Source: Cymodocea nodosa (taxonomy: Eukaryota > Streptophyta > Magnoliopsida > Alismatales > Cymodoceaceae). From it: a DNA stretch of 64,000 nucleotides. The position numbers were made by a program, and so were the translations under genes. Shown here in pieces: positions 16,320 through 56,880 of the stretch (positions are counted from its first letter, which is position 1; each line of letters opens with the position of its first letter). Below the pieces are notes generated by a model that saw nothing but the letters and a program-made list of their open reading frames with translations, had not been told where the DNA came from and did not search any database. The stretch spans positions 19,227,501-19,291,500 of the forward strand of contig CM072335.1 of NCBI GenBank assembly GCA_036874045.1, in the 5' to 3' direction.

Positions 16320-18566
16320 TGTTTAGAATGAAAAAGTGCATATTATTAACGGTTAAATGATGGTTAATTGCATAATATTTAGCTTATCATATAAGAATTA
16401 AGCCATTATGTTATAATTGCATTGTTATATGCTTTAATTAGAATTACCACTTAATTTTAGGGAATTAATGTCAATTTAGTACATTTCTGAACTGTCGGTA
16501 AGTTGCAGGATGTGAAATTCTTAAGTATCCGAATTTTTTGATATTTCAGACAGTTATGTTTAACATACTGAACATATTTCGGACAGTTATGTTTAACAAA
16601 TCGAACATGTCAGATAGTTATGTTTAAATTGCCGAACAGTTATGTTTTGAAAGAATATTTTATTATTTCCTAAAGTACACGTGTCAAAACTATAATGCAT
16701 GACTTAAGTGAACTTTCGGTGAGTTATCTCTAACTATCCGAAATTGCAGCTTGGCATCAGAGAGTTATATATGTAACCCTTCAAAATCTCTTTTATTTAT
16801 AAAATAGCTGAGGACACGTGTCATGTTCTGGTAAAGTGACTTAAGTGGACTTTCGGTGAGTTAGCTGTAACTATCCGAAATGTATTTAAGCATCGGATAG
16901 TTAGACATGTAACTCTCCGAAATATGTATTTTATTATTAAACTGCTGCTGACACATGTCGAGATTTGGTAGATTTACTTAAGTTATATATCGGTGAGTTA
17001 TCTGTAACTATACGAAATGCATCTAAGCATTGGATAGTTAAGTTTGTAAGTATCCGAAATGCACTTGAGCATCGGATAGTTAAATTTATGCACGTGTTTT
17101 ATAGTTAAATCAACGAAGAAAGTCCGTTGAGTTATCTGTAACTCCACAGACTATTATTTTCTAATATGCCACTGTAGCAGTTGTAGAAACAGGACAGTTG
17201 GAAGAAAAACCACGATTGCATGTATTGCGCAAGGAGAAGAAATCATCGTCGTTGATATGAATGAAGGAAATCCAACCGACCATTCAAGCAGAAGCAGTTA
17301 CTACTAAAGAAATATAAAAGAAAAGAAGAAAAAGAAGTAAAGTGTGTGTGGGTGATTGATGAACGGCCAGTGTGTACAGAGGAGGAACACCGAGCTTTCT
17401 ACAAGCAGTATCGGTAATTCTCCAAAGTACCACACCAACCATTGTTACCACCACCATATCCACCTTAATCACCAACCATCGGAGGTTTGTGAGAATATTT
17501 TCTTGATGTCGGGTCGATTCTGAGTAAAACACAGTGCGTGACAACCACTATGAGGAGTGATCACGTCACGGGAAGGGAAGCCATTTTCACCAAGCACCGA
17601 CTCATATTTCAGGAGATCGTAAAGCTTCTAGCTTGGACTTCAGGTTGATGCCTGTATGCTGAAAAGGAGATTATCTTGCAATTCTGGACTCACAATTCTA
17701 TAGGGAGAGAAGATAGGATTGTAAGTGGTTTAATTTTCAGTGGTGTAATCGTGTCGTATGTGGTGATGAAAGTATTTGCTGTTGATTGAGATTACTTTAC
17801 ATTTCACCTTTCACCCATTTCCATGTTCATATTAAACCAAAAATACCAAAAACAACTTATCTGCTATTGTATGTTGTATTTGAGTGTTGTATTGTTTGTG
17901 TTGTATCGTGATTAATGTTATCTTTGTCAGTGTTGTGATTGTTTTATGTTTGTTTTAGTTTTATAGTTTACTGAAATTGGTTTGTTCAAAAGACTTAAAG
18001 ATTTTAATGGTTACTATTTGAATTATCTGAATGTTAGTATTGCTTAATGATAAATCCAGTGTTTACTAACATTAAAGAGCTTAATTGATGTTATTTACAA
18101 TCTGTGGAATTGCCCAATGGTTGGCCGAATTCCTCTGTAAATAGCAGTATTAAAAAGAAAAGACAGGCTCGTGGAGTTAAGTTAAGTCCACAAGGTTAGT
18201 CCATTGAGTTAGCTATAACTCAACGAACTTTATCCCTTGAGTTAATTGTAATTCAATAGAGAGCTTATTGAATATATAAATTTGATTGTTAACAAATAGA
18301 CAGTTCTAAACTTTTAAGTAATTCCCTATGGGATCGACCTGTACTTGCACATTGATACAATAGACACTGTGCATTTGTAGTTAAAGTACAAATTGGAATT
18401 AATATCTAAATTGTATTAAAGGTTGTTTGTTTACTTCTTAAAGAAAAAGAATAGGCATAAAGATAAATTAACTAAGTAAAAACAGAAGTAACAAATCCAA
18501 GTTTTTCTGGTACGTTATTGGAGATCTAATTAGATATTCTGGTGTCGTGCTGGGAAAATCTAAACA
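16320..18566 (+). repeat. 5' LTR of element D
   Basis: Starts TGTTTAGAATGAAAAAGTG and ends GGGAAAATCTAAACA. The hairpin array runs from about 16490 to 17160. One hairpin at 16714-16743 has arms TTTCGGTGAGTTA and TAACTATCCGAAA around a 4-base loop and follows ACACGTGTC and ACTTAAGT. TATAAA at 17313-17318 is a candidate TATA box. A second type of hairpin, built on GTTGAGTTA/TAACTCAAC, occurs near 18200-18245. An open frame on the - strand (17284-17544) has counterparts in other LTR copies. Confidence 0.93.
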
Positions 18567-18573
18567 AGTTTTA

Positions 18574-18593
18574 TGGCACCATTGCCGGGGAAT
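18574..18593 (+). promoter_or_regulatory. primer-binding site of element D
   Basis: TGGCACCATTGCCGGGGAAT lies 7 bases after the LTR. It is close to the TGGCGCC-type site described for Athila/Tat elements (complement of an Asp-tRNA, from memory). In copy E the site has drifted further (59901-59920). Confidence 0.75.
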
Positions 18594-18642
18594 TGAATTG
18601 AATTGACTAGAATTGAATTGAATTAATATAAACAACTGTTAG
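18590..18642 (+). repeat. (AATTG)n microsatellite beside the PBS
   Basis: Repeated GAATTGAATT words directly follow the PBS. The same pentamer is longer in copy E (59860-59905, - strand), so the tract is variable within the family. Confidence 0.85.
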
Positions 18643-18695
18643 AGCTGTTTTGTTTTAATAGCCAGAGTGTTGTGTTTTCTTCTGTAATTGAGAAT

Positions 18696-20245
18696 ATGGC
18701 ATACGCTTATGCTCAAAGATTTCTGAAACCTGTAATTAGCATATGTGAATTCTGCAATTCTGAAAGACATGACATTTCTAACTATTTGAAACTAAGACAT
18801 TTGCAGATGGTTAGCTCCCATGAACAACAAATGAATTATCCTCAATATAATAGAGCTGAGTACGAGAATCCTATAGTTTAACCAACTGATGGTCAGTATA
18901 GAATGTGTAATATGTTGAGAGACACAGAAGTTTAAGATAGGTATGACAGACTAGAGCGTAGGATAGAATAAAACCTGGACAAACTAGAATACTTTATGTG
19001 TTTGCAACAAGAAGTCAACCAATTAAACTATAAGGAATCATATTCAGAACCTAAAATGGATATAATTTACGAAACTGAAAAAACCATAATGAAAATTGAT
19101 CAAAAATTGAATGCAATGAGATTAGATGATCTAGAAAGAAAACTAAAAGCATTGGATGAATATACAATGAAAATACAAGTTATGCAACAGGACAATGAAA
19201 ATTATAATGTTATAAACTTGCATAATTTGCAAAATATACAGCAAATAAAAAATATTAATGCAAGAAAATTTAAAGAATGTACTTTAAAACTAAAAACAAT
19301 TGAAGATCATAATTACGAAAATGATATACAAAAACATCATGAGAGTAACGAAAATTTGGAAGATGTTTGTGTAACATTAAAATCTGGAACTGATATACCA
19401 CCAAGAACTCAAAATAAAAATGATATGAAGGTGGATAAGAGTAAAAATCAAAATGATAATGAAAATGTAATAGTTGAAAATCTAGAAATCACTGAAGAAC
19501 AATCCGAATCTGCTAATGAAGCTAAAAATGATCAAACAAATCAAATGAAATAAAAAGAATCTATTGTAGAAAAAAAAATCAGAGAAATTTTTGAAAAAGT
19601 ATAAGTCAACATTCCTTTGTTAGATCTATTGAAGAAAATGTCACCTTGTGCTAAATTTCTGAAGGATTGGTGTACTAAGAAAAGAGAGCAAAAAATTCTT
19701 AGAAATGTCTTTTTAACTGAGCAAAGTAGTTCCCTATTTCCGCCACAAATTCCAAAAAAGTTATCTGATCTTGGAATCCCTGTTATATCATGTACCCTAG
19801 GAAATACCATTCTAGATAGAACCTTAATAGACTTAGGTGCAGGTATAAATGTTATACCAAGTGATATATTTGCATCCTTAGGATTAGAAGGCTTAACTCC
19901 TACTAGTACAGTTATTTAATTAGCTGATAGAAGTATAAGATACCCTAGAGGAAAAATAGAGGATGTGTTAATTAAAATCAAAAACTTTATATATCTTATT
20001 GATATTGTAATTTTGGATTCCCAACAAATTAAGCATAAAAATAGTGATACATCTTTAATTTTGGGAAGGCCATTTTTTGCAACATCAGGGGCTGTTATAA
20101 ATTGTAAAACTAGAGTAATGAAGTTAACATATGGTAATGAGGATACTCAATTAAATATTTTCAAACCAGAAAGGTTTGAGGAGTTAGAAATGTCCTTACA
20201 TACCATAGACTTTTTAGAGGATGAAGGAGATATGTTGAAGATGTG
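18696..20245 (+). pseudogene. nucleocapsid-protease ORF of element D
   Basis: ATG at 18696 is the first good start after the PBS (MAYAYAQRFLKPV). Only about 12 residues later comes the zinc knuckle, CEFC....H, whose last Cys is Tyr here but intact in copy E. A long charged coiled-coil segment follows (19000-19550). The retroviral-type protease comes next, with active site LIDLGAGINVIP at about 19830 and later SLILGRPF. There is no capsid domain in front. In-frame stops include about 18880, 18933, 18970, 19551, 19602 and 19917, and a frameshift near 20235 leads into RT. Confidence 0.85.
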
Positions 20246-21460
20246 ATTCAAGAAGAATTAAATAGGCAAATCAATTCTGAAACTTTAGAGGAAAGTGAAA
20301 GCATAGATATAGAAGGAGATCAGGAAGAAATTAATTTAGAAAATGATGATGTTCAATTAGGAGCTCTAGTTTCTGATGGGCAACATTTAGAATTAAAACC
20401 TTTACCTCCTGAATTAACCTATATATTTCTGGAAGAAAAACGAACCTGTCCAATCATTATTGCTTCAGATTTAAAAGAGGATCAAATAGCTAAATTAAAA
20501 GATGTAGTAAAAAGTTATAAAGAAGCAATAGGATAGACTATGACTGATATAAAATGGTTAAGTTCAACTTTATGCTGTCACCACATATATTTAGAAGAGA
20601 ATGCTAAACCTGTTAGAATTCTTGAGAGGAGATTAAATCCAAACCTTAAAGAAGTAGTCAAGAAGGAAATAGTGAAATGGTTAGATAATGACATAATTTA
20701 TCCGATTTCTGATAGCTCGTGGGTTAGCCCAATCCATGTAGTTCCCAAGAAATCAGGATTAACGGTTATTAGGAATGAAAGTCAAGACTTGATACCTACT
20801 AGAATTCAATCAGGCTAGAGAGTATGTATAGACTATAGAAAGCTGAATGTTGTGACTAGGAAAGATCATTTTCCCTTACTTTTTATAGATCAAATGTTGG
20901 AAAGATTAGTAGGGCAAGAATATTTTTGTTTCCTAGATGGGTATTCAAGTTATAATTAAATTCCAATAGCATTAAAGGATCAAGAGAAAATAACTTTCAC
21001 TTGTCCTAATGGAACTTATGTTTTTAAGAGAATGCCATTCAGATTATGCAATGCGCCAGCTACCTTTCAAAGATGTATGCAGGGCATATTTACTTGAATG
21101 ACTGAAGATTTCTTAGAAATATTTATGGATGATTTTACTATATATGGCAACTCATATGAAGTTTGTTTAAGCAATTTAGACCAAATATTAAAACGCTGTG
21201 TAGAAAAAAATTTGGTTTTAAATTGGGAAAAATGTCACTTCATGGTTAAACAAGGAATAGTCTTAGGGCATGTTGTTTCTAAGAAAGGGTTGGAAGTAGA
21301 TAAAGCTAAAATAGAAGTAATTTCTAATCTACTAGAACCTAAATCAGTAAAAGATATTAGATCATTTCTAGGACATGCTGGTTTTTATAGAAGATTTATT
21401 AAAGGCTTTAGCAAGATAGCAAGACCTTTAACTAACCAATAAAAATATGTTCCATTTAAC
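20243..21460 (+). pseudogene. reverse transcriptase of element D
   Basis: An acidic linker (20243-20500) is followed by gypsy RT. Motifs are NPNLKEVVKKEIVKWLDN, SSWVSPIHVVPKK, RVCIDYRKLN, GYSSYN.IPIAL, TFTCP-like, LCNAPATFQRCM, EIFMDDFTIYG (catalytic Asp pair at 21128-21133) and FLGHAGFYRRFI. The catalytic residues survive. Stops at about 20816, 20957, 21096 and 21440 break it; two of these replace expected Trp and Gln codons. Confidence 0.92.
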
Positions 21461-21930
21461 TTTGATAAAAATTGCAATGAAGCATTTTTCAGACTTAAGA
21501 CTAGCTTAATTTCAACTCCTATAATTCAAGCACTTGATTGGAACCATCCATTTGAATTAATGTGCGATGCATCTGATTTTGCTGTAGGAGCAGTGTTGGG
21601 ACAAAAGATAGAAAAATCTACTAGAGTGATTCATTATACAAGCAAAACCTTAAATGATGCTCAAGTTAATTACACAACTACTAAAAAATAACTATTAGCT
21701 GTTGTGTTTGCCTTAGAAAAGTTTAGATCATATTTGATTGGAGCTAAAGTGATAGTATACACGGATCATTCAACTTTAAAACATCTAATAAAGAAAAAAG
21801 AGACTAAACCTAGATTGATTCGATGGATATTATTATTACAAGAATTTGATCTAGAAATTAAAGATAAAAAAGGTTGTGAGAATGTAGTAGCAGATTATTT
21901 ATCAAGATTACAAATAGAAAAATCAAATAT
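21461..21930 (+). pseudogene. RNase H of element D
   Basis: Gypsy RNase H. Words seen are [39 protein letters not shown], then a stop near 21689, then [25 protein letters not shown] and [10 protein letters not shown]. The domain closes at VVADYLSRL. The first catalytic Asp and the TDH Asp are present. It is continuous with RT in the same frame. Confidence 0.9.
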
Positions 21931-23286
21931 TGAAATTAAGTATAATTTTCCTAATGAACAATTAATGACCATCAACACAATGCCTTGGTATGCAAACTTA
22001 GTTAATTACTTAGTAACTGGTTTAACACCTAAGGATTGGAATAGACAGGATAAGAAATTGTTTTTCTTGAGAGTAAAATATTACTATTGGGAAAACCCAT
22101 ACTTATTTAAGAAATGTCCTGATCTGGTTTTAAGGAGGTGTGTTCTAGAAACTGAATATGCGAGCATATTGTCTTTCTATCATGACCAAGCTTGTGGAGG
22201 GCATTTTGGTTCAGGGAAAACTACTGCAAAAATTCTGCAATGTGGGTTTTATTAGCCAACACTATTCAAAGATGCTCATAAATATTGCTTAAGTTGTTTA
22301 AGATGTCAACAAATAGGAAGAATATCAAAGAGGAATATGATGTCTCTTAATCCTATTGTTGAGGTTGAAATCTTTGATGTGTAGGGAATAGATTTTATGG
22401 GTCCATTTCCTATGTCTAATCAATTTAATTATATATTTTTAGGGGTGGATTATGTATCTAAATGGATAGAAGCTATTCCTACAAAAACTAATGATAACAA
22501 AGTGGTAATACAATTTATAAGAATAAATATATTTGCTAGATTTAGAATACCTAAAGCTATTATCAGTGATAGAGGAACTCATTTCTGTAATAGAAGTTTT
22601 GAAACCTTAATGAAGAAATATGGAATAAACCACAAAATTGCAACATCATATCATCCGCAAACAAGTGGACAAGTAGAAAGTGCTAACAAACAAATTAAGT
22701 TAATCTTAGAAAAAGTAGTAAATCCTACTAGAACAGATTGGGCTAATAGATTAATAGATGCACTTTAGGCTTATAGAACTGCTTATAAAACAAGCTTAGG
22801 TATGTCACCTTTTAGGCTAGTATATGGAAAAAGTTGTCATTTACCAGCGGAAATAGAACATAAAGCTTATTGGGCATTAAAAACTCTGAATACTAATTTA
22901 AATCAAGCTTTTGAAAATAGAAAAATGCAACTAATTGAATTAGAAGAATTTAGAAATGAAGCTTATTCGAAGACTGTAAAAGAAAAAGAGAAAATAAAAT
23001 TCTGGCATGATAGGAAAATTATTCCAAAAAGCTTTGAAATAGGACAAGAAGTATATCTTTATATGGCTAGACTCCATAACCATCCAAGAAAATTAAGATC
23101 TAGATGGCAGGACCTTACATAGTTCGAAATATTTATCCTTATGGAGCTATTGAAATTGAAAATCCTAAAAATCAGAATATATTTAAAGTAAATGGACAAA
23201 GACTTAGACCTATTCTGAAAACACCAAAAAGCTCCTTTGGAATTATAGAAGAAGTCAGAGTAGAGGATTACTCGAGCTTTACTTAG
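21931..23286 (+). pseudogene. integrase of element D
   Basis: A zinc-binding region ([10 protein letters not shown], then CLSCLRCQQ) is followed by the catalytic core: [30 protein letters not shown] and HPQTSGQVESANK. The D, D, E residues are all present. The C-terminal part reads [13 protein letters not shown], then LRSRW. A frameshift at about 23100 moves the end ([12 protein letters not shown]) to another frame. Stops at 22254, 22382 and 22766 all replace expected Trp codons. No chromodomain is visible, as is usual for Athila-type elements. Confidence 0.92.
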
Positions 23287-23827
23287 TAAGAAATTAGTTT
23301 TTATGTTTATATATAAAAAAATTTATAAATAAAAAAAACACATTAAATATATATATATATATATAATATAAAAATCGTTATGGATTAACCGACCGGATCC
23401 ATCGATCTGACCGGAACATAAAAAAATATGTATATTAATTTTCAGAAAAAAATGTTGGTTTTACCGAAACATAGTATCGGTTAAATCGGTAAAAAAAAGA
23501 AGAAAGTATTATCTGTGGTATTTTTATTATTATATCTGTTTGTACGGGGAGTCCGTTGAGTTACGCTTAACTCAATGAGCTTACTCCGTTGAGTCTTGAG
23601 TTAGTCAACGTACTTATTCCATTAAGTTAACTGTAACTCAATGGAATACTGTAGCTAAGACCGTGGAAGAGATAGTAATAGTTGGTTCGGGAAATGACCT
23701 GTTTACCCGCCTAAACTTAGGGCTTATTTATCTTAAACCTAGGGTTTTGGGGGTATTGTTTGGTAAATCATTTAGAATCTAGAACAGTAGAAATCAGAGC
23801 GATTCCATGCTGTTGAGTAACTCCACG
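23287..23827 (+). other. spacer with inverted repeats in element D
   Basis: Noncoding. It contains a TA run (23347-23366) and an inverted repeat built on TTACCGAAACATAGTATCGG (about 23460). It also has hairpins of the GTTGAGTTA/TAACTCAA type (23550-23650). The same spacer in copy E (54603-55135) has an extra ACCGAAACATAG unit. Confidence 0.65.
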
Positions 23828-26800
23828 ATGAGGAAGATGACACTTAAATTCTAGGAAGAGGTTGTTGGTATATCAGAATTTCTAAAGGAATTAGAAGAAA
23901 GGCACACGCGGTAGAAGATCAAAAATACGACGAGAGAAAAAGAGATGCAGAAGGTATAATATGAACTTTTTAGACTAAGAAGAATATTAGTAGATTGTGG
24001 TATACAAATACCCTAGATAATGAAGACATGTTTGGAATGAAAAAGTGCATATTATTAACGGTTAAAGGATGGTTAATTGCATAATATTTAGCTTATCATA
24101 TAAGAATTAAGCCATTATGTTATAATTGCACTGTTATATGCTTTAATTGAAGAATTTGCTTAATTTGGGAGAATTAATGTTAATTTAGTACATTTATGAA
24201 CTGTCGGTAAGTTGCAAGCTGTGAAATTCTTAAGTATCTGAATTTTCTGATATTTCGGACAGTTATGTTTAACATACCAAACAAATTCGGATATTTATGT
24301 TTAAATTGCCGAATAGTTATGTTTTGAGAGAATATTTTATTATTTCTTGAAGTACACGTGTCGAAACCATAATGAATGACTTAAGTGGATTTTCAGTGAG
24401 TTAGCTGTAACTATCCGAAATTGCAGTTGGGCATCAGATATTTAGACCTGTAACTCTCCGAAATGTTATTTTATGATTAAACTGCTGCTGACACGTGTCG
24501 AGATCTAGTAGATTTACTTAAGTTATATATCGGTGAGTTATTTGTAACTATCTGAAATGCATCTGAGCATCAGATAGTTAAGTTTATAAGTATCCGAAAT
24601 GCACCTGAGCATCAGATAGTTAAATTTATGCACGTGTTGAATTTAAATGCTTTAGAATATCACGTGAGATGCATATGTTTAACTCGTTAAGTTAGCATAA
24701 CTATACGCGTTGAGTTACATGAATATTACACTAAGGTAATGCGTTATGTTAGCAGCTTATTTCTTTATATTTTCTAATATGCCACTGTAGCGGTTGTAGA
24801 AACAGACAGTTGGAAGAGAAAAACCACGTTTGCACGTATCACGCAGGAATTCAATTGCGTAGGGAGAAGAAAGCATCGTCGTTGATATGAATGAAGGAAA
24901 TCCAACTGACCATTCAAGCAGAAGCAGTTACTACTGAAGAAATCTAAAAGAATAGAAGAAAAAAAGAAAAGTGTGTGTGATCGATGGGCGGACAGTCTGT
25001 GCAGAGGAGGATCAGCGACGCAATTCTCTGAAGTACCACACCAACCATCATCATCACCATCAGCACACCATAATCACCAACCATCGGAGGTCTGTGAGGA
25101 TACTTGCCTGATGTCGGGTCGATTCCGAGCCAAACATAGTGCCTGACAACCACTGTGAGGAGTGATCATTCTATGTTTGTATGTTGTATTTGAGTGTTGT
25201 ATCGTGATTAATGTTATCTTTGTTAGTGTTGTGATTGTTTTATGTTTATTTTAGTTTTACAATTTACTGAAATTGGTTCATTCAAAAGACTTAAAGACTT
25301 TAGTGGTTTCTGTTTGAATTATCTGAATGTTAGTATTGCTCAATGATAAATCCAATGTTAACTAACATTAAAGAGCTTAATTGATGTTATTTACAATCTG
25401 TGGAATTGCCTAATGGTTGTCTGAATTCCTTTGTAAATAGTAGTATTAAAAAGAAAAGACAGGCTCGTGGAGTTAACTTAAGTCCACAAGGTTAGTCCGT
25501 TGAGTTATCCATAACTCAACGAACTTAGTCCATTGAGTTAGCTGTAATTCAACGGAGAGCTTATTGAATATATAAATTTGATTTTTAACAAGCAAACAAT
25601 TCTCAAGTTCGTCAGCAATTTACCTATGGGATCGACCTGTACTAGCACACTGATACAATAGACACTGTGCACTTGCAGTTAAAGTACAAATTGGAATAAA
25701 TATCTAAATTGTATTAAAGGTTGTTTGTTTACTTCTAAAAGAGAGAATAAGCATAAAGATAAATTAACTAAGTAAAAATAGAAGTAACAAATCGAAGTTT
25801 TTCTAGTGTAGAGCTAGGAAAACACAAACAAGACATGAATCAGAGTAGCAACAGAAATTACAGTTAGTAAAGAAAGAAGAATCAGGCTGAATAATGAAGT
25901 AGCCCTAGAGCTAATCCAGCGCAAGGCCAAATTATGGTTCAAAAGGTGCATTGCTGATCGTGGAAGTTGGGAAATATGGCGGTAGGAACAACAAGAGGCA
26001 ACTGAAGAATGAGACGAGCCGACTGCTGAAAGACCTGTTCCTGAGGAACAACAGTGAAGACCTTCAGTTCCACCATTTAAGCTGTTGGCACGAGCAGAAA
26101 TGATGGGGCCTTCAACTAAATAAGAGTTTAAGGAATTTCAAGCACTAGTTCATGTTGGGAAAAACCAAGGAGAATTAGAAGATTTGGTAGTGGCTAAAGC
26201 ACACCTAGTGTTTGATGCACTTTACAAAAAGAGGGCTGTAGAAAAGTTGAAAGCCCAATATAAAATTAAAATGGAACAGCATCAAGAAGCTACTACCAAA
26301 CCTGCTGCAAAAGGAGATGAAGCTGGTGCTTCGAGACCAGTAATTATAGAAAAAGTTAAACAGGAAGAGCCAGTACCTGTGGCTCGAAGGCCTGCAGAGC
26401 CTACTTTTGTAGGTTTAATCTCAAAAGAAGAAGAGGAAGAACAGGCACAATTAATTAGAAAAAGGAAAGGAAAAGAGATAATGCCTAACTATCAAGAAGA
26501 GATTAAATCTAAAGCACTAATAGCAATAGGGCCTGTGGAGTCAATTTTTATAAACCTGCTATCCGATTCTAAGGAGGAGTAGCAGTAGGATGAGCAAAGA
26601 TAAGAAGAAAATTAGGTTGAAATTAATCTACACCCTGTACAAGAAGAAAAAACAAAAATTAGGGTAGAAACAGAATTGCCCGTGACTCCATCCCAATCTG
26701 TTACATAATCAGAAGGAATAGTAACAGAACAGATTGGTAGTTAGGAGGAAGAAGAAAGAGTAGAAAATGAAGAGGTTGAAAGAAGCCATTTGGACAAAAA

Positions 26801-27854
26801 TAACTTCACAAATTCTACTGAAGAGAAAGAAACTCTTCAGTAATTTCTAGAAAGAATTCAAGACGGAGTGGAGAGTTCTGCCGGCTCACCACCACAGACA
26901 TAAGCAAAAGCAAAAATTCAGGAATCTATAGAGAATGTTCAAATGCATCCTATAGAAGAAGAAGAGCAAGAACAAACCCCTCTAGAACAGCAAAGTCACA
27001 TTCCTGACCCGACTGAAACAACAATTTTGAATGAAGTACATTTTTATAGTCAAGAAGATTATATCATATACCAAGAAATAAGGGGTTACGATATCATTTA
27101 CAGTAGACAAGTAAATTGGGATGGAATGTAAGAAATCAAAGATTTATTTGAGTTCCAAGGTCTAGTGAAGTTCATTTCTCAAGAAAGAGGGCATGCGGTA
27201 TATGAGAATTTAGTGCCCTGTTTCTATGCAAATTTAAGAGAAGGAGAAGAAGGATTAATTTCCAACGTGGAGGAAGCTGATGTACAGATAACACCAAAGC
27301 TTCTCCACAACATTTTTGGATTGAAGAATGAAGGACTAAAAATTTTAGAAGACACAACTACCGTCGAGTGGACTGAACAGGAAATCAAAGATTGTTAAGC
27401 TAGCAATCCTAGTGTACCTTTATTAAACAAATTGAAGCATTTAAGTGGTAAAGCACACATGGTAGCTAACATTCTGATTAAAAATGTCTATCAACGATAG
27501 GGCCATGACATAGAATTTAGTCAATTTGTCAAATGAGCCACATATGCAGTTGTAAATAGGATTCAAATAAATTGGTTTGCAGTTTTTATCTCTAAGCTGA
27601 AAGTAGTAAAGAAAAAATTGTTTTATGGAGATTTGATTCCACTACTGATGGTGGATTGTATTGATTTCACGAAATGGACATCAAAAAGGATCAGATCAAG
27701 AACCATTTCAGTGAAAGAATATAGAAATTTTGTAGCTGTAGAGATAGTTGTATCTTCTAGAGGTATTACAGGAGCTGTAGAAAGAATTAATCAATTAGAA
27801 CTTCAATTAGAAAAACTCTAGAAGGAAGTAGATGAACTTAGGAATAGAGATTAA
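23828..27854 (+). pseudogene. extra ORF with transposon-protein-like domain (D)
   Basis: The reading frame starts at ATG 23828 (MRKMTLKF), is interrupted by a solo LTR (24029-25830) and resumes at 25836. It continues in one frame to a TAA at about 27854 despite many stops. The middle is Glu/Gln/Pro-rich. The C-terminal domain (27130-27820) reads LFEFQGLVKFISQERG, CFYANLREGEEG, IFGLKNEG, KKLFYGDLIPLL and KWTSKRIRSRTISVKEY, related to the A element domain at 4750-5360. It ends in a short coiled coil. Copy E has the same ORF with fewer stops. Its function is unknown, and I see no signal peptide or membrane helix. Confidence 0.75.
24029..25830 (+). mobile_element. solo LTR of the D family
   Basis: 1802 bp, from TGTTTGGAATGAAAAAGTG to AAAACACAAACA. 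It is flanked by the perfect TSD AGACA (24024-24028 and 25831-25835). It is homologous along its length to the LTRs of D, with internal deletions. It shows that a second D-family element landed in D and then lost its interior by LTR-LTR recombination. Its TATA region is altered (ATCTAAAAG near 24942). Confidence 0.94.
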
Positions 27855-28520
27855 ATTGTATTGTTCGTCTACTTGTATAAAATTATATGAAATTGTATGA
27901 TGTACTTGTAATGTAATTGATTCATATTAATGAATATAATTTTTCAGATGCAATTTTCATACATGTTTTGGATGTGAAATGAATGAAATTTATTGAATAT
28001 TATGTAATTTGTGGAACTTTATGAATGAATATGTAATAGATTTACAATTTGCTGAATGACAGGATAAATGCTTAAAAATTTCTATATGTTGCAAGGTAAA
28101 ATGTAAATTTTGTATAATATCAAATGACCTGCAAGTTAAATCTTTATATAATATTCAGATTTAAACGAATTTTGATTAGAATGATGCATTAATGACATAG
28201 ATTTAACTTTATTTCAGTTAAAAAAAAAAAAAAAAATAGAGAGGAACTTACGTGGAGTAAAACATAGAAGTTGTCAAGTGTTAACTCAACGAAGTAAGTT
28301 CGTTGAGTTAACCGTAACTCCACGAGGTCAGTAATATAATATAAGGTCACTCCATTGAGTTATCTGTAACTCAACGAAGTTAGTTTGTGGAGTTAGCAAC
28401 AATAATCGATTGTGTTCCGTTGAGTTATCTGTAACTCAACGAGGTTAGTTCATGGATTAAGCAGAACGGTTATTCTTTTAACCACGAACGAAACTTCGTC
28501 AATTTAGCGATTACTAAAAT
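27855..28520 (+). repeat. spacer with GTTGAGTTA hairpin array
   Basis: AT-rich noncoding sequence, then a 17-base A run (28220-28236), then at least three hairpins. One at 28418-28441 has perfect 10-bp arms, CGTTGAGTTA and TAACTCAACG, around a 4-base loop. The same array occurs in E at about 51740-51950. Hairpins of this kind are otherwise a feature of the LTRs here. Confidence 0.75.
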
Positions 28521-28772
28521 TTGAAATTAATAGTGGCACATATACCCATAAAAACAGGAACCACGATGCATGTTGCAAGACACGTTCTTGCAATGAGATT
28601 CATTCACTTTATGGATGTACATTATATATATAAATTAGAATGTTATTTACGAGTTTCCAGCACTTTTAAAAGAAAGGAGAATGCATTGGAAAAACTGGAA
28701 GGAGAAGTAGCTGATTCAACTTAATCCGACAACAAATATTTACTAAATGGAAAGCTTCAGACTGGTATGTAA
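28521..28772 (+). pseudogene. small conserved ORF of the D/E family
   Basis: About 80 codons (MKLIVAHIPIK at the start, YYLRV-like and KRKENALEKLEGE later), with one stop at 28722. Copy E keeps a closely similar frame at 51447-51686 with no internal stop. I do not recognise it. It lies just upstream of the capsid ORF and may be only a leader that happens to be open in both copies. Confidence 0.4.
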
Positions 28773-28949
28773 TTAATCTTCTGCTATTTATTTATGAGCA
28801 CATGAGCTCGTTCTCTAAGCACTAAACGATTAATAAGAACACCTACCTAGGAATTTTCATCGTAGAGGAGTATTGAAAAATTTTCTGAACTAAACTTTAA
28901 CGAAATTCTTTGGGGTGTAGCTAACTTTTCTTTAAAAGAGAACGCAGAA

Positions 28950-29579
28950 ATGGTTGTTCCAGTAGAAAAACCATTAGGAGAAATTCTGTATCTGGAATTA
29001 GTTGATGAACCTTCATGTATTCGATTGCCAAACTTTGAGGGAGATAGGTTTGAACTGAAATCTAATTATATTAGTCAATTGCCACATTTTCATGGATTAG
29101 AAAGAGAGGATGCCTATTATTTCCTTAGAGAATTTAATGAAGTTTGTCAAACAATGAAAATGCCAAACATGAGTATAGATGCTATTAAACTTAGATATAT
29201 CCCTTTTTCTTTAAAAGACACAGTTAAGAGATGATTATATACTCTGTCACCTGATTCAATTTCTACATGGACTAAATTTTGCTCTATTTTTTTGGAAAAA
29301 TATTATTCAACACATCAAACAATTAAAAAGAAGAAAGAAATCTTAATGTGTAGCCAAAAACAGGGTGAATCATTCTGGAAATATTTTGAAAGATTTAAAG
29401 ATTTACTGACTCAATGTCCACATCATGCAATGAGTAAAGCACAATTAATCGGTATAATTTATGAAGGCATAGATGTTTCAACGAAATCTTTATTAGAATC
29501 TACTTGTCAAAATGGATTTTTAAAATTATGTAGTGAAGAAGCATGGGCATATTTAGAAAACTTCCCAAAACAGAATTAA
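28950..29579 (+). pseudogene. capsid-only gag ORF of element D, 3' of pol
   Basis: ATG at 28950, 210 codons to a TAA, with one TGA at 29232 where copy E has Trp. It matches the Athila-type Retrotrans_gag capsid domain: LPNFEGDRFELKSNYI, QLPHFHGLEREDAYYF, IKLRYIPFSLKD, LSPDSISTW, FLEKYYSTHQTI, GESFWKYFERFKDLLTQCPH, YEGID and AWAYLENF. It stops where the capsid domain ends, before any zinc knuckle; the knuckle opens the ORF 10 kb upstream. A normal gypsy gag lies at the 5' end with the knuckle after the capsid, so this is a displaced half-gene. It would build the particle shell. Confidence 0.9.
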
Positions 29580-29689
29580 TAGCAAGAAGAACTATGCCTA
29601 AAAAGTTTAATTTTAATCAACAAAACTGTATTCATGCCTGCTACAATTACTGTATTTATTGTCAAATCTTTTACATTGAGGACAATGCA

Positions 29690-29712
29690 AAATGTAGGTA
29701 TGGGGGGGAGGT
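29690..29712 (+). promoter_or_regulatory. internal polypurine-like tract (D)
   Basis: GAGGACAATG words lead into GTATGGGGGGGAGG. This GGACAATG-plus-purine signature is what one usually sees just before the 3' LTR of plant Athila/Tat elements. Here 1.3 kb of noncoding module still follows. E has the same site at about 50096-50110. Confidence 0.55.
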
Positions 29713-29879
29713 AATTAAAGTAACAGCCATGTAAGTTTGTTAATTAAAAAAATTAAAATGGTACTGCAAAGTTTTGTGGAAATTGAAAATTTTTATGAAC
29801 TTGCTGTAACTATCCGATAATTGAGACTGTAAAATTTATAATCTGTAACTGCTTGAATGTTTTATTTAGAAGGCTATAT

Positions 29880-30960
29880 ATGATGCTATAGAATTTACTA
29901 TTTATGCAAATCTAGATATAGTATCTTATGTTTTTTCTGAATTTCATAAGTTTAACAGTTTCACGATTTTAAAATGAAATCAGAATGCTTAATGAAAAAT
30001 CAGTAAATTATCTGAAGTCCTGAAGGAGCTGAGATGTGAATTCTAGATTAAATGAAACACATATGATTAAAGATACATTTAATTTGATTGATTGAACTTG
30101 TAGAATGATTTATGTGTAGATCTTATTAAACTATAGAAAAAGTATGAGCTCACTTTTATGGATTCATATTTTCAGTAAATGATAGAAGCAGGACTATATG
30201 AGATTGGTGTTTTACTTCATCTGTATTAATGAAATACGTACATATACAGTATGCGATTAATGCTTTGTTTTGTGTGTATTTAAAAAAAAAAAAAGGAAAA
30301 AAGAGAAAAAAAATTGAGAGTTTATTGACTTGTTTGGTTACGAGTCTTTTGTACTTGAGTAGATAGGTATGTAAGGATTGTTACCCTAAAAAAAAAGGAC
30401 TTTTGAAATCTGGCAACCTAAGATCCTGATCAGATCTGAGATTGTTGACTGAAAGCTCGTTACATGGATACATTAAAAAGCTCCTGTATGATTCAAGCTT
30501 GTCAAATTAACTTTTAAAGTATAAAAAAATATATATACTATTCTGAAAGGTATAAGTATTTTGTGAAATATAGATATTTTATGAATCGAGTATATTTTCT
30601 ATTATATAGAATTGCTGAAATATGAATCTGGAATTGACTTTTGAAGTTGTTTTAATGGAGATACAATTCTTTATTCTACTTGTCTTAATCATATTGAATT
30701 AGATTGTACTTTGATTCGTATGTTGTTGAAATTTCTTCTAGAAATCTTATTGGAAAATTCAGGATGACAGATGATGAAAAGAACAAACGATAATATAATT
30801 AACACTTATGTAATGATGATATATTTCGTATGTAATTTGCATATATTCTAAGTATATTTATAGGTTGATTACTGAAACATACAGAATATATATTTTTATG
30901 CTGAACAGAAGGAAAAAAAAGAAAAAAAAGAGAGGAGAACTAATTCTAGCACTTTTTGAA
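29880..30960 (+). repeat. 3' noncoding module of D shared with copia A
   Basis: Related to 1845-2790 of copia A over most of its length, in the same order and strand. Matching blocks include GAGAGTTTATTGA at 30308, GTACTTGAG, AGATAGGTATGTAAGGATTG and CTGTATGATTCAAGCTT. No coding potential is seen. It lies between capsid and the terminal PPT. Confidence 0.85.
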
Positions 30961-31005
30961 AGACTAATTAATTAGATCTTAGTTTGCTAAGGGACTAGCA
31001 AAATT

Positions 31006-31020
31006 TAGGTATAGGGGAAG
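31006..31020 (+). promoter_or_regulatory. terminal polypurine tract of element D
   Basis: TTAGGTATAGGGGAAG immediately precedes the 3' LTR. Copy E has GTATGGGGGAAG in the same place, so the D tract is slightly worn. Confidence 0.8.
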
Positions 31021-32677
31021 TGTTTAGAATGAAAAGGTGCATATTATTAACAGTTAAATGATGGTTAATTGCATAATATTTAGCTTATCATATAAGAATT
31101 AAGCAATTATGTTATAATTGCACTGTTATATGCTTTAATTAGAATTACCGCTTAATTTTGGGGAATTAATGTCAATTTTGTACATTTCTGAACTGTCGGT
31201 AAGTTGCAGGCTGTGAAATTCTTAAGTATCCGAATTTTCTAATATTCGGACAGTTATGTTTAACATACCGAACATATTTCGGACAGTTATGTTTAACAGA
31301 CCGAACATGTCGGATAGTTATGTTTAAATTGCCAAACAGTTATGTTTTGAAAGAATATTTTATTATTTCCTAAAGTACACGTGTCAAAACCATAATGCAT
31401 GACTTAAGTGAACTTTCGGTGAGTTATCTCTAACTATCCGAAATTGCAGCTAGGCATCGAATAGTTATATCTGTAACCCTCCGAAATCTCTTTTTATTTA
31501 TAAAGTAGCCGAGGACACATGTCATGTTCTAGTAAAGTGACTTAAGTGGACTTTCGGTGAGTTAGCTGTAACTATCCGAAATGTATCTAAGCATTGGATA
31601 GTTAGACCTGTAACTCTCCGAAATCTGTATTTTATTATTAAACTGCTATTGACACGTGTCGAGATTTGGTAGATTTACTTAAGTTATATATCGGTGAGTT
31701 ATCTGTAACTATCCGAAATGCATCTACGCATCGGATAGTTAAGTTTGTAAGTATCTAAAATGCACCTGAGCATCGGATAGTTAAATTTATGCACATGTTT
31801 TATAGTTAAATCAACGAAGAAAGTCCGTTGAGTTATCTATAACTCCACGGACTATTTATTTTCTAATATGCCACTGTAGCGGTTGCAGAAACAGGACAGT
31901 TGGAAGAAAAACCACGATTGCATGTATTGTGTAGGGAGAAGAAATCATCGTCGTTGATATGAATGAAGGAAATCCAATCGACCATTCAAGCAGAAGCAGT
32001 TACTATTGAAGAAATATAAAAGAAAAGAAGAAAAAGAAGTAAAGTGTGCGTGGGTGATTGATGGACGACCAATGTGTATAGAGGAGGAACATCGAGCTTT
32101 CTACAAGCAGTATCGGCAATTCTCCAAAGTACCACACCAACCATCGTTACCACCACCATATCCACCTTAATCGCCAACCATCAGAGGTTTGTGAGAATAC
32201 TTTCTTGATGTTAGGTCGATTCCAAGCAAAACACGGTGCTTGACAACCACTGTGAAGAGTGATCGCGTCGTGGGAAGGGAAGCCATTTTCATCAAGCACC
32301 GACTCATATTTCAAAAGATCGTAAAGCTTCTAGCCTTGACTTCAGGTTGATGCCTATATGCTGAAGAGGAGATTATCTTGCAATTCTAGACTCGCAATTC
32401 TATAGGGAGAGGAGACAGGATTGTAAGTGGTTTAATTTTCAGTGGTGTAATCACGTCGTATGTAGTGACGGAAGTATTTGCTGTTGATTGAGATTACTTT
32501 ACATTTCACCTTTCACCCATTTCCATGTTCATATTAAACCAAAAATACCAAAAACAACTTATCTGCTATTGTATGTTGTATTTGAGTGTTGTATTGTTTG
32601 TGTTGTATCGTGATTAATGTTATCTTTGTCAGTGTTGTGATTGTTTTATGTTTGTTTTAGTTTTACAGTTTACTGAA
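31021..32677 (+). repeat. 3' LTR of element D (truncated)
   Basis: Starts TGTTTAGAATGAAAAGG and follows the 5' LTR closely to the words GTTTTACAGTTTACTGAA. It then switches to copia C coding sequence at 32678. About 590 bp at the 3' end of the LTR are missing. The hairpin array (31190-31850) and TATAAA (32015-32020) are kept. Confidence 0.92.
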
Positions 32678-45074: not shown

Positions 45075-47194
45075 TGTTTGGATTTACCCAGCACGACACC
45101 AGAAAACTAGTTTGGATCTCCAGCAACATACCAGAAAAACTTTGATTTGTTAACTTTTGTTTTTACTTAGTTAATTTATCTTTATGCCTATTCTTTTTCT
45201 TTAGAAGTAAACGAACAACCTTTAATACAAATTAGATATTAATTCCAATTTGTACTTTAACTGCAAGTGCACAATGTCTATTGTATTAGTGTGCAAGTAT
45301 AGGTCGATCCCATAGGGAATTGCTTAAGAGTTGAGAACTGCCTATTTGTTAACAATCAAATTTATATATTCAATAAGCTCTCCATTGAGTTACAGTTAAC
45401 TCAACGAACTTTGTTCGTTGAGTTATGGTTAACTCAACAGACTAACCTCGTGAACTTAAGTTAACTCCACGAGCTTGTCTTTTCTTTTTAATACTACCAT
45501 TTAAAGAGGAATTCGGCCAACCATTGGGCGGTTCCACATATTGTAAATAACATTAGTTAAGCTCTTTAATGTTAGTAAACACTAGATTTATCATTAAGCA
45601 TACTAACATTCAGATAATTCAAACAGTAACCATTAAAATCTTTAAGTCTTTTGAGCGAACCAATTTCAGTAAACTGTAAAACTAAAACAAACATAAAACA
45701 ATCACAACACTCACAAAGATAGCATTAATCACGATACAACACAAACAATACAACACTCAAATACAAAATAAAATAGCAGATAAGTTGTTTTTGGTATTTT
45801 TGTTTTAATATGAACATGGAAATGGGCGAAAGGTGAAATGTAAAGTAATCTCAGTCGACAGTAAATACTTCTATCACTACATAAGACGCGATTACACCAC
45901 TGAAAATTTAACCACTTACAATCCTATCTCCTCTCCCTATAGAATCGCGAGTCCAGAATTGAAAAATGACCTCCTCTTCAACATACAGGCATCAACCCGA
46001 AGCCAAGGCTAAAAGCTTTACGATCTCCTGAAATATGAGTCGGCGCTTAGTGAAAATGGCTTCCCTTCCTGCGACGCGATCACTCCTCACAGTGGTTGTC
46101 AGGCATTGTGTTTGGCTTAGAATCGACCCGACATCAGAAAAGTATCCTCACAGACCTTCGAAGGTTGGTGATTATGGTGGTTATGGTGGTGGTAACGATG
46201 GTTGGTGTGGTACTTCAGAGAATTGCCGACACTATCTGTAGAAAGCTCGGTGCTCCTCCTCTGTACACACTAGCCATACCCATCGATCACACACATTTTA
46301 CTTCTTTTTCTTCTTTTCTTTTATATTTCTTCAGTGGTTTCTGCTTGAATGGTCGGTTGGATTTCCTTCATTCATATCAACGACGATGATTTCTTCTCCC
46401 TTCGACAAGTGAATTCCTACGTGATATGTGTGATTGTGGTCTTTTCTTCCAACTGTCTATTCCTGCAATCCCTATAGTGGCATATTAAAAAATAAACAAT
46501 CCGTGGAGTTACAAATAACTTAACAAACTTTCTTCATTGATTTAACTATAAAACACGTGCATAACTTTAACTATCCGATGCTGAGGTGCATTTCGGATAC
46601 TTATAAACTTAACTATCTGATGCCTAGATGCATTTTGGATAGTTACAAATAACTCACCGATATATAACTTAAGTAAATCTACCAGATCTAGACACGTGTC
46701 AACAACAGTTTAATAATAAAAGAAACATTTCGGAGAGTTACAAGTCTAACTATCCGATGCTTAGATGCATTTCAGATAGTTATAGATAACTCACCAAAAA
46801 TCTACTTAAGTCACTTTCCTAGAACATGACATGTGTACTTCAGAAAATAATAAAATATTCTTTTAAAACATAACTGTTAGGCAGTTTAAACATAACTATC
46901 TGATACATGTTCGGTCTATTAACATAAATGTCTGAATTATGTTCGGTATGTTAAACATAACTGTTTGAAATTTCAGAAAATTCGGATACTTAAGAATTTC
47001 ACAGCCTGCAACTTATCGATAGTTTAGAAATGTACTAAATTAACATTAATTCCCCCAAATTAAGCAAATTCTTTAATTAAAGCTTATAACAGTGCAATTA
47101 TAACATAATGGCTTAATTCTCATATGATAAGGTAAATATTATGCAATTAACCATCATTTAACCGTTAATAATATGCATTTTTTCATTCTAAACA
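45075..47194 (-). repeat. 3' LTR of element E
   Basis: 2120 bp, the left LTR on the + strand. It is close to the 5' LTR at 59928 but keeps a block near 45890-45945 that the other lacks, and it has one fewer GTTGAGTTA hairpin near 45400. The hairpin array lies at 46500-47000. Confidence 0.93.
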
Positions 47195-50115: not shown

Positions 50116-50627
50116 TTTGCATTGTCCTCAATGTAAAAGATTTGACAATAAATACAGTAATTGTAGCAGACATGAATACAGTTTCGTTGATTTAAAATTC
50201 AGGATAAGTAATCAGTTACATACCTTGTTTCATTTGTATCTCCTTTGCATATTCTGATTTTTGATTCTGAAAAACTTTTCATTCACAGATAAAAGCAAAA
50301 TATATAACAAAATAACATTTAACAAATATTGATAAATCATTGTCTTATGTGAAACCTAGACTCCTATGCCTTTGGTGGCTCACAAGCAAGCCAGTTGGTT
50401 TCCCAAAATAGATACCAACAAACTAGATTGATATTTTTTTTTCTTTTATAAAATAAGAATGAAAACTACATTTTTCTCTTTTTTAAAAAAATAAAATAAA
50501 ATAAATGCAGAATACACACAACATTAAACACACAAAATCACAGCTTAAGAACATGATTGAAAAGTAGAAACAAATGGAATAAACATGTCAGTCCTAACAA
50601 ACTTTTTAGGCATAGTTCTTCTTGCTA
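50116..50627 (-). other. spacer after capsid ORF in E
   Basis: Noncoding and A/T-rich. It contains a stretch around 50340-50440 not seen in D (words such as GTGGCTCACAAGC), which looks like extra sequence relative to D. No gene recognised. Confidence 0.4.
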
Positions 50628-51257
50628 TTAATTCTGTTTTGGGAAGTTTTCTAAATATGTCCATGCTTCTTCACTACATAACTTTAAAAATCCATTTTGA
50701 CAAGTAGATTCTAATAAAGATTTCGTTGAAACATCTATGCCTTCATAAATTATATCGATTAATTGTGTTTTACTCATTGCATGATGTAGACATTGAATTA
50801 GTAAATCTTTAAATCTTTCAAAATATTTCCAAAATGATTCACCCTATTTTCAGGTACACATTAATATTTCTTTTTTCTTTTTAATCATTTGATGTGTTGG
50901 ATAATATTTTTCCAGAAAAACAAAGCAAAATTCAGTCCATGTAGAAATTGAATCAGGCGATAGAGTATATAACCATCTCTTAGCTGTGTCTTTTAAAGAA
51001 AAAAGGATATATCTAAGTTTAATAACATCTATACTCATGTTCGACATTTTCATCATTTGACAAACTTCATTAAATTCTCTAAGGAAATAATAGGCATCCT
51101 CTCTTTCTAATCCATGAAAATGTGGCAATTGACTAATATAATTAGATTTCAGTTCAAACCTATCTCCCTCAAAGTTTGGCAATCGAATACATAAAGGTTC
51201 ATCAACTAATTCAGGATACAGAATTTCTCCTAATGATTTTTCTACTGGAGCATCCAT
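50628..51257 (-). pseudogene. capsid-only gag ORF of element E, 3' of pol
   Basis: ATG at 51257, TAA at 50630-50628, 210 codons. Two stops lie close together near 50850. The domain is the same as in D (LPNFEGDRFELKSNYI, QLPHFHGLEREDAYYF, KRWLYTLSPDSISTW), with the Trp kept that is a stop in D. It again lies after integrase and the extra ORF, and it ends before any zinc knuckle. Two copies with identical order make an assembly or local rearrangement artefact unlikely. Confidence 0.9.
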
Positions 51258-55135: not shown

Positions 55136-56500
55136 TAAGTAAAGCTCGAATAGTCCTCTACTCTGACTTCTTCTATAATTCCAAAGGAGCTTTTTAGTGT
55201 TTTCAGAATAGGTCTAAGTCTTTGTCCATTTACTTTAAATATATTCTAATTTTTAGAATTTTCAATTACAATAGCTATCTATAAGGGTAAATATTTCGAA
55301 CTATGTAAGGTCCTGCCCATCTAGATCTTAATTTTCCTGGATGGTTATGGAGTCTAGCCATATAAAGATATACTTCTTGTCCTATTTCAAAGCTTTTTGG
55401 AATAATTTTTCTATCATGCCAGAATTTCAATTTCTCTTTTTCTCTTACAATCTTCGAATAAGCTTCATTCCTAAATTCTTCTAATTCAATTAATTGCATT
55501 TTTCTATTTTCAGCAGCTTGATTTAAATTAGTGTTCAGAGTTTTTAATGCCCAATAAGCTTTATATTCTATTTTAGTAGGTAAATAACAACTTTTTCCAT
55601 ATACTAGCTTAAAAGGTTACATACCTAAGCTTGTCTTATAAGCAGTTCTATAAGCCCAAAGTGCATCTATCAATCTATTAGCCCAATCTGTTCAAATAGG
55701 ATTTACTACTTTTTCTAAGATTAACTTAATTTGTTTGTTAGTACTTTCTACTTGTCCACTTGTTTGCAGATGATATGATGTTGCAATTTTATGGTTTACT
55801 CCATATTTCTTCATTAAGGCTTCAAAACTTCTATTACAGAAATGAGTTCCTCTATCACTGGTAATAGCTTTAGGTATTCCAAATCTGGCAAATATATTGG
55901 TTCTTATAAATTATATTACTATTTTGTTGTCATTAGTTTTTGTAGGAATAGCTTCTATCCATTTAGATACATAATCTACCCCCAACAATATGTAATTAAA
56001 TTGATTAGACATAGGAAATGGACCCATAAAATCTATTCCCCACACATCAAAGATTTCAACTTCAACAATAGGATTAAGAGACATCATATTCCTCTTTGAT
56101 ATTCTTCCTATTTGTTGACATCTTAAACAACTTAAGCAATATTTATGAGCATCTTTGAATAGTGTTGGCCAATAAAATCCACATTGCAGAATTTTTGCAG
56201 CAGTTTTCCCTAAACCAAAATGCCCTCCACAAGCTTGGTCATGACAGAAAGACAATATGTTCGGATATTCAGTTTCTGGAACACACCTTAAAACTAGAAC
56301 AAGACATTTCTTAAATAAGTATGGGTCTTCCCAATAGTAATATTTTACTCTTGAGAAAAATAATTTCTTATCCTGTCTATTCCAATCCTTAAGTGTTAAA
56401 CCAGTAACTAAGTAATTAACTATGTCTATATACCAAGGTGTTGTGTTGATGGCCATTAATTGTTTATCAGGAAAATTATCCTTAATTTCAATATTAGATT
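55136..56500 (-). pseudogene. integrase of element E
   Basis: Matches the D integrase. It has a zinc-binding region with [10 protein letters not shown] and [11 protein letters not shown], then [10 protein letters not shown] (Trp intact, a stop in D), [11 protein letters not shown] and, after breaks near 55910, the DRGTHF and QVESTNK-like parts. The end is [21 protein letters not shown]. Frameshifts lie near 55500 and 55910. The D, D, E residues are recoverable by reading across frames. Confidence 0.9.
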
Positions 56501-56880
56501 TTTCTATTTGTAATCTTGATAAATGATCTGCTACTACATTCTCACAACCTTTTTTATCTTTAATTTCTAGATCAAATTCTTGTAATAATAATATCCATCG
56601 GATCAATCTAGGTGTAGTTTTTTTTTTCTTTATTAGATGTTTTAGAGCTGAATGATCCATGTATACTATTACTTTAACTCCAATTAGATATGATCTAAAC
56701 TTTTCTAAAACAAACACAACAACTAATAATTCTTTTTCAGTAGTTGTGTAATTAACTTGAGCATCATTTAAGGTTTTACTTGCATAATGAATCACTCTAG
56801 GAGATTTTTCTATCTTTTGTCCCAACACTACTCCTACAGCAAAATCAGATGCATCGCACATTAATTCAAATGGATGGCTT
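56501..56880 (-). pseudogene. RNase H of element E
   Basis: Clean over its length: [62 protein letters not shown] and VVADHLSRL. It shares one open frame of 316 codons with the start of integrase (56861-55911). Confidence 0.92.

Follow-up and report, generated by a model that had tools for sequence, protein, structure and literature searches.

An Athila-like Ty3/gypsy lineage in Cymodocea nodosa with a probable relocation of gag behind pol

Two elements in the window

The window, a stretch of 64,000 nucleotides of Cymodocea nodosa (GCA_036874045.1, contig CM072335.1), harbors two LTR retrotransposons of one family, D on the forward strand and E on the reverse strand (Table 1). Both read LTR, PBS, zinc knuckle, protease (PR), RT, RNase H (RH), integrase (IN), extra ORF, capsid, LTR. 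The D LTRs are 94.3% identical between the 5' and 3' copies (1658 aligned columns). As an earlier note on this DNA had claimed, the first ATG ORF start past the 5' LTR (which ends at 18566) and the PBS of D is at 18696, and this ORF opens at the knuckle without a capsid. The D knuckle (18744-18785) has its final cysteine replaced by tyrosine; that of E is intact (59732-59691, CX2CX4HX4C), with one in-frame stop between it and the long open part of the 5' ORF region. The claim that E repeats the order of D, with a knuckle start at 59780, was likewise borne out, and the capsid lies 3' of integrase and the extra ORF in both elements. The second D capsid piece matches PF03732 (E=1.3e-15). Although the capsid-only ORF had been described as complete, in-frame stops interrupt it in both elements.

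Table 1. Features of elements D and E, in positions of the window
Feature	Position	Strand	Remark
D 5' LTR	16320..18566	+	TGTTTAG...CTAAACA ends
D PBS, TGGCACCATTGCCGGGGA	18574..18591	+	
D 5' ORF region, from zinc knuckle on	18696..19553	+	frame interrupted
D protease region	19605..20246	+	87-93% amino acid identity to E pieces
D RT, RNase H, integrase to IN tail FKVNGQRLRP	20537..23286	+	Pfam run on E counterparts
Solo LTR nested in D, TSD AGACA	24029..25830	+	foreign to element D
D extra ORF	26124..27821	+	weak PF20167, under curated cut-off
D capsid part of 3' gag	28950..29576	+	in-frame TGA 29232-29234
Deletion junction in D, capsid end / F-box ORF end	29556..29583	+	
D 3' untranslated region, GAGGACAATGC...GGGGG motif and PPT	29609..31020	+	
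D 3' LTR	31021..32677	+	3' part missing
E 5' LTR	59928..62036	-	TSD CAATC at 62037-62041
E PBS	59903..59920	-	
E 5' ORF region from knuckle on	58851..59780	-	start 59780
E protease region	57921..58601	-	
E RT, RNase H, integrase pieces	55275..57503	-	
E extra ORF pieces	52362..54158	-	
E capsid part of 3' gag	50628..51257	-	two in-frame stops within 50844-50852
Deletion junction in E, same as that of D	50624..50651	-	
E 3' LTR	45075..47194	-	TSD CAATC at 45070-45074

E is a single complete insertion: it has two LTRs, one PBS and one PPT, and a 5-bp TSD flanks it as a whole. An order of this kind could be an illusion produced by misassembly, by nested insertions or by tandem elements with LTRs in common, and nested and adjoining LTRs are frequent here (for example at L010, at L022 and as the solo LTR in D), yet the arrangement is found again at many sites, its spacing unchanged, which makes an illusion extremely improbable. 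For E as assembled, a tandem or nested origin of the order is ruled out by the single PBS, PPT, LTR pair and TSD.

The D/E family across the genome

D and E have in common a 1.8-kb deletion that fuses the end of the capsid to the end of the F-box ORF, and because of this deletion their capsid ORF stops where it does. With up to two mismatches allowed, the deletion junction is matched twice in 374.6 Mb, at D and E themselves, against 3,235 matches for the undeleted capsid/gag-C junction (controls 0 for both). D and E are deleted members of a family with thousands of copies. In members without the deletion, the 3' ORF is a longer gag that has the NPNWRNHPNLSW region besides the capsid but no knuckle, and the F-box ORF follows it. 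The clean cut of gag at the capsid/knuckle border that the earlier note had proposed is rejected: the border is a deletion artefact private to D and E, and the usual 3' ORF is a longer gag. What survives of the accompanying claim, that the capsid is translated apart from the polymerase, is the separate ORF behind pol.

The layout of the family is regular. The capsid is followed, after about 1.6-2.2 kb, by the 3' untranslated region of D and an LTR in 17 of 20 copies (the exceptions are L016, L020 and L022), and because it holds the same place before the same 3' sequences, it is not an unrelated insertion with termini of its own. Among the 5' ends of 10 fetched fragments, five read LTR-PBS-knuckle, two start inside the element and three have no usable 5' end. 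Each of nine PBS sites (fetched loci and window) is followed by the same GAATT-rich leader. The PBS core stands 80-110 nt ahead of the knuckle ATG at 322 exact genome sites (control 0), and a gap of this size leaves no room for a capsid between the two. No capsid was found between PBS and protease in the D/E-family copies and sites examined; far from most members carrying a capsid before the knuckle, these sites place the knuckle ORF directly past the PBS.

Gag-last order and constraint in several gag groups

The gag-last order is common to several families and not peculiar to one. In four further gag groups (A-D; six loci read), gag lies downstream of pol. The integrase tail VNG(Q/H)(R/H/C)LK stands just upstream of gag in five of the six non-D/E loci, L042 having a possible tail end only, and the GAGGACAATGC motif follows gag in all six, differing at 4-8 of 32 positions (at 11-13 in the best of 30 shuffles). 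None of the six has a PBS in the stretch inspected, which does not extend to the 5' ends of the four groups. The knuckle is inside the 3' gag in some other groups. Coordinate pairing covered the best 150 of 4,640 gag, 150 of 4,714 H2C2 and 150 of 5,460 RNase H candidates. Within these best-150 lists, same-strand gag neighbours were found for H2C2 (6) and RNase H (10) at 15 distinct gag loci, with gag downstream of RNase H or integrase at 15/15 loci and upstream in 0/16 pairs.

These pairs bear on the alternative that a second gag arose behind pol, that some families keep a canonical 5' gag and that the D/E family lost its own and may borrow Gag in trans. Such a gag-pol-gag arrangement draws on duplication as a natural intermediate, on the missing knuckle of the D/E 3' gag and on the stretches inspected in the four other groups, which stop short of the 5' ends. 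It is nevertheless unlikely, given the absence of an upstream gag from the pairs among the 150 best matches per domain and a D/E family that lacks a 5' gag at the 322 sites yet numbers thousands of copies.

In the gag tree, nine 3' gags form one clade (100/99) apart from a canonical gag-PR protein; branches are long, and the clade may partly mirror the host because all nine sequences come from one genome. Between groups, identity is 0.33-0.42 at codon position 3, 0.50-0.67 at position 1 and 0.56-0.82 at position 2. Judging from these identities, the 3' gags of five groups are constrained as proteins, with third positions near saturation. Within the family, substitution ratios from shared variants are 0.43 for gag (off-frame 0.52 and 0.58) and 0.42 for the F-box ORF (off-frame 0.40 and 0.79). 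The gag frame is not separable from the off-frame controls in these within-family ratios, and such counts were dropped as proof of constraint. Fixed differences between two subfamilies give 0.42 for gag against 1.36 and 1.38 off-frame, on small counts, and 1.07 for the F-box ORF against 1.79 and 1.69. Neither gag (about 395 codons) nor the F-box ORF (379 codons) is open to full length in any of 20 copies.

The 3' gag might instead be an unused passenger ORF from another element, with particles built from a canonical Gag that other loci of the genome supply. Additional ORFs 3' of pol occur often in the group (PMC6317226, PMC7264820), some Retand clusters are without GAG (PMC11963269), BARE-2 is gag-less (cited in PMC11963269, PMC4535378), and the within-family ratios carry no sign of constraint. 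The conservation of the 3' gags of five groups as proteins, the frames of 357-428 codons still open in five copies (L012, L046-L049) and the absence of any 5' gag from the material seen all speak against a passenger, which is decidedly improbable. A stand-alone gag of group A, used as a query, retrieved one protein, from Gastrolobium bilobum, at 30%.

The best explanation is an Athila-like Ty3/gypsy lineage with pol first and gag last, in which gag was relocated once and the 3' gags form one constrained clade; its probability is put at roughly 0.8. Gag would have moved behind pol once, in the distant past and before the families split, possibly by a template switch to gag-pol-gag with later loss of the 5' gag, and the lineage would have continued to depend on it in its new place. 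The circular permutation suggested earlier is not needed, as gag relocation, or duplication and loss, is simpler. Genomic RNA would be translated into PR-pol, with the knuckle in the D/E family, and Gag would come from a separate, probably spliced, RNA starting in the LTR, its candidate splice sites having been picked by eye. Foamy viruses likewise make Gag and Pol from separate messages, but in them it is Pol that a spliced RNA encodes, and their genes stand in the canonical order, the reverse of the one seen here. A 2005 paper, which states that introns ahead of gag had not been described for LTR retroelements (PMC1142308), counts against a spliced Gag RNA.

Affinities of the lineage and its F-box ORF

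RT and RNase H precede integrase, as in Ty3/gypsy. An Athila-lineage feature is the tRNA-Asp-type PBS of copy L034 (TGGCGCCGTTGCCGGGGA, a form that presumably pairs with tRNA-Asp), and the 5-bp TSD of E (CAATC) matches the Athila-lineage value of 5 bp. A published figure legend names tRNA-Asp for Diaspora and Calypso (PMC1142308), and in most lineages the TSD is given as 4 or 5 bp (PMC6317226). The Ty3/gypsy domain order, GAG-PROT-RT-RH-INT (PMC6317226), is departed from in that gag lies behind INT. Athila, Calypso and Diaspora resemble the present elements in the tRNA-Asp-type PBS, CX2CX4HX4C and the PR-RT-IN order (described for Diaspora, PMC1142308), but Diaspora holds gag, zinc motif, PR, RT and IN in one ORF of 1892 codons (PMC1142308), whereas here gag is separate and behind IN. 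The 3' gags group near P0002, in a comparison set without a named Athila reference. P0002, a canonical gag-PR protein with 39-40% identity to the D/E-family 3' gag, runs from gag through knuckle and LRSGK into PR in a single ORF, unlike the elements here. The motif YNPxWRNHPNxSW past the knuckle is common to the D/E family and database gags. Athila ORF-1 (PF03078), a domain that just 16% of Athila elements are reported to carry (PMC6317226), has no match in the pieces scanned, and PF20167 matches only under its cut-off.

SIRE, Ogre and Retand share with this lineage an accessory 3' ORF or domain, possibly host-derived, and an orchid gypsy has an added, possibly host-derived m6A demethylase domain (PMC9289625); the excerpted accounts of these elements describe neither gag behind pol nor an F-box. 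A literature search with limited word combinations found no title or abstract opening on gag behind pol in plants or on an F-box ORF in a retrotransposon. The description and classification of LTR retroelements rest in part on gag preceding pol. A clade spreading against this rule would show Gag-Pol fusion to be dispensable and would make the question of the Gag:Pol ratio testable by plain RNA mapping. The present elements suggest that pipelines expecting the standard order may discard gag-last elements; a reference survey of plant elements removed unexpected domain orders as likely mispredictions (PMC6317226).

The F-box ORF, a gain seen in this one family, matches PF00646 in all three copies tested, at 35.1-41.1 bits against a curated cut-off of 20.5 (best E=1.4e-10), and an F-box match is present in 20/20 family copies. 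Its protein might serve as an accessory protein that uses the host SKP1-cullin ligase, and on sequence grounds the ORF is a candidate retrotransposon counter-defence gene. Polerovirus P0 turns a host ubiquitin ligase against silencing. By analogy, a whole clade of plant LTR retrotransposons could be pictured with reversed gag/pol order, in which a spliced Gag message replaces tuning of the Gag:Pol ratio by frameshift, readthrough or proteolysis and, in the most successful family with its thousands of copies, an added F-box protein directs ubiquitin ligase against silencing as P0 does; this picture is speculative and rather doubtful. No outside F-box homologue was found at E<=0.001 among 752 candidates. 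The genome holds 2,106 F-box starts (<=2 mismatches; controls 0). The span from ATG to stop is exactly 1140 nt in 14 of the 16 copies with both ends found, and an AG lies ahead of the ATG in 21/25. In D and E the F-box ORF is mostly deleted and hence not visible.

Elements D and E and their interrupted capsid ORFs

The window carries two Ty3/gypsy elements in opposite orientation, D and E, which belong to an Athila-like family, the D/E family (Table). In both, the first ORF past the PBS opens with the zinc knuckle (at 18696 in D and 59780 in E), followed by PR, RT, RH, IN, an extra ORF and finally the capsid, bearing out the gene order proposed in an earlier note. LTR-LTR identity is 94.3% for D, measured on a partial LTR, and 90.6% for E with gaps counted. 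By eye, copia coding sequence lies on both sides of D. A dispersed LTR-like repeat occurs three times in the window, one copy sitting between the capsid and the 3' LTR of E.

Table. Features of the window and gag groups outside the D/E family
Feature	Position or locus	Strand	Remarks
D 5' LTR	16320-18566	+	
D 3' LTR, truncated	from 31021	+	
Solo LTR nested in D, D's own LTR family	24029-25830		TSD AGACA
E LTRs	62036-59928 and 47194-45075	-	TSD CAATC either side
Dispersed LTR-like repeat	6067-7851, 41866-43532, 47585-49168		
Fragment of another gag	44591-44095	-	adjoins apparent copia LTR
Another element family	1853-5422; L016:4745-8297; L036:45-1639		
Gag group A	L039, L041, L044		
Gag group B	L040		
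Gag group C	L042		
Gag group D (distinct from element D)	L050		

The capsid ORF had been described as complete and cleanly ended, a description that fails in both elements. It is interrupted by a TGA at 29232 in D and by two stops within 50844-50852 in E, and its end is not natural. Among the 15 of 20 other family copies in which both ends can be placed, the interval from the capsid end to the point where D and E resume is 1186 nt long in L027 and 1780-1815 nt long in the other 14; about 400 bp more is missing from D than from E. Allowing up to two mismatches, the undeleted junction between capsid and gag C-terminal part has 3,235 matches in the genome (374.6 Mb, 28 contigs; controls 0), and the deletion junction has two, D and E themselves. 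E, with its gag C-terminal and F-box parts deleted, is a complete insertion with two LTRs and a target-site duplication on both flanks. The missing parts may be provided in trans, or local conversion may have produced the two copies; both readings are compatible with a junction found in these two neighbours alone. The junction itself, common to two oppositely oriented elements that are its sole known places in the genome, probably arose locally, for instance by gene conversion or a jump over a short distance.

The undeleted family and its F-box ORF

Twenty of the 40 best matches to D's capsid were fetched, a sample biased towards D-like copies. The succession of capsid, gag C-terminal part with F-box, 3' UTR and LTR is found in 17 of them, and an F-box match in all 20. 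In L012 and L046-L049, five copies in all, at least 357 codons of the 3' gag follow the start of the capsid. This gag contains NPNWRNHPNLSW and no knuckle, whereas P0002, a database protein with canonical gag-PR in one ORF, and most other aligned database relatives have a knuckle between the capsid and NPNWRNHPNLSW.

The F-box ORF matches PF00646 with up to 41.1 bits (E=1.4e-10), and its starts number 2,106 in the genome. From ATG to final stop it measures exactly 1140 nt in 14 of the 16 copies with both ends found; the remaining two carry deletions (694 and 563 nt). Some 10 nt upstream of the ATG, 21 of 25 copies have a T-rich stretch and an AG, which by eye would suit a splice acceptor. Both the gag and the F-box frames contain a premature stop in 20 of 20 fetched copies. 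Gag codon 210 past the capsid start is TAG in 12 of 26 D/E-family copies and CAG or CAA in 14; the TAG may reflect decay of C to T where a CHG site is methylated, or it may be an amber stop that is read through, regulating capsid versus longer gag. At L045:431-2461, a single open frame of 677 codons runs from gag on into the F-box protein, the two having been fused in frame by an apparent deletion.

A capsid before the knuckle, which the earlier note set against its own reading should most family members have it, is excluded by spacing at the sites covered here. LTR, PBS and knuckle follow one another directly in five of ten upstream fragments inspected (L029, L033, L034, L037, L038), with 104-129 nt from PBS to knuckle ATG in the five measured; two fragments start within the element (L035, L036) and three have no usable 5' end (L030, L031, L032). 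Genome-wide, TTGCYGGGGA lies 80-110 nt upstream of the knuckle ATG at 322 sites (exact matches; control 0), a gap that leaves no space for a capsid.

Gag behind pol in other groups

A genome search with PF03732 yielded 4,640 candidates, the best 150 of which were scored. Twelve of these 150 were read: six belong to the D/E family (L043, L045-L049) and six to gag groups A-D. An integrase tail like D's FKVNGQRLRP lies directly upstream of gag in five of the six non-D/E loci, L042 showing merely a possible end of one. The GAGGACAATGC...GGGGG motif, 3' of the capsid in D, recurs past gag in all six with 4-8 mismatches in 32; the best of 30 shuffles per locus reach 11-13. No PBS was found in these loci, each of which reaches about 0.4 kb upstream of gag. 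The 3' gag keeps its knuckle in groups B and C and is without one in group A (L041, L044); the group D ORF is broken off inside a knuckle. The other gag fragment in the window is about 65% identical to group D.

Coordinate pairs agree with the loci read. Among the best 150 matches per domain, gag and H2C2 lie within 15 kb of each other in six pairs, all of them on one strand. For gag and RNase H, taken up to 20 kb apart, ten pairs share a strand and two do not, the latter being separated by about 14 and 17 kb. Together, the pairs that share a strand represent 15 distinct gag loci, two of which, on contig C1, resemble one duplicated stretch, and gag is downstream in every one. Canonical copies may still occur outside these lists of 150.

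In a tree of 22 gag sequences (nine from this genome and 13 of 21 database matches), the 3' gags form a single clade with support of 100/99, all nine coming from one genome and the tree having long branches. The database proteins P0001 and P0003 branch next to it at a fork short of full support (94/93), and P0002 branches after them. Identity between groups is 0.50-0.67 at codon position 1, 0.56-0.82 at position 2 and 0.33-0.42 at position 3; because positions 1 and 2 are more alike than 3, the 3' gags were preserved as proteins during group divergence. The common order suggests that gag relocated before the groups split, in which case Gag has been needed from its new location. Tests within the D/E family are weak: shared-variant ratios are alike on and off frame, and fixed differences between two subfamilies are 10 nonsynonymous to 7 synonymous in gag (off-frame 14/3 and 14/3) and 11 to 3 in the F-box ORF (off-frame 12/2 and 12/2).

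Known elements and proposed expression

The standard Ty3/gypsy order is GAG-PROT-RT-RH-INT in a survey of plant lineages, which discarded elements of unexpected order as likely mispredictions (PMC6317226). Diaspora, an Athila relative, has the canonical order in one ORF (PMC1142308), whereas the D/E family has gag behind pol. The available part of a review of additional ORFs places env-like and antisense ORFs behind pol and does not name gag there (PMC7264820). No paper describing a plant element with gag behind pol, or a retrotransposon carrying an F-box, came up in a literature search whose coverage mostly excluded subscription papers.

Gene order, separate ORFs and conservation are direct observations. 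In the proposed scheme, genomic RNA would be translated from the 5' ORF into protease and pol, the knuckle included in the D/E family, and Gag would be made from another RNA, in the simplest case a spliced one; splicing would then fix the Gag:Pol ratio. The predicted F-box protein probably works via a SKP1-cullin ligase; that it counters silencing is no more than conjecture.

Another element family, with one copy in the window and two elsewhere, resembles D's 3' UTR at about 72% over one stretch. Past this stretch, the window copy has three ORFs (3429, 3915 and 4727), of which the last is about 35% identical to the extra ORF of D and E. This family is perhaps a non-autonomous partner having the UTR and the extra ORF in common with D and E.
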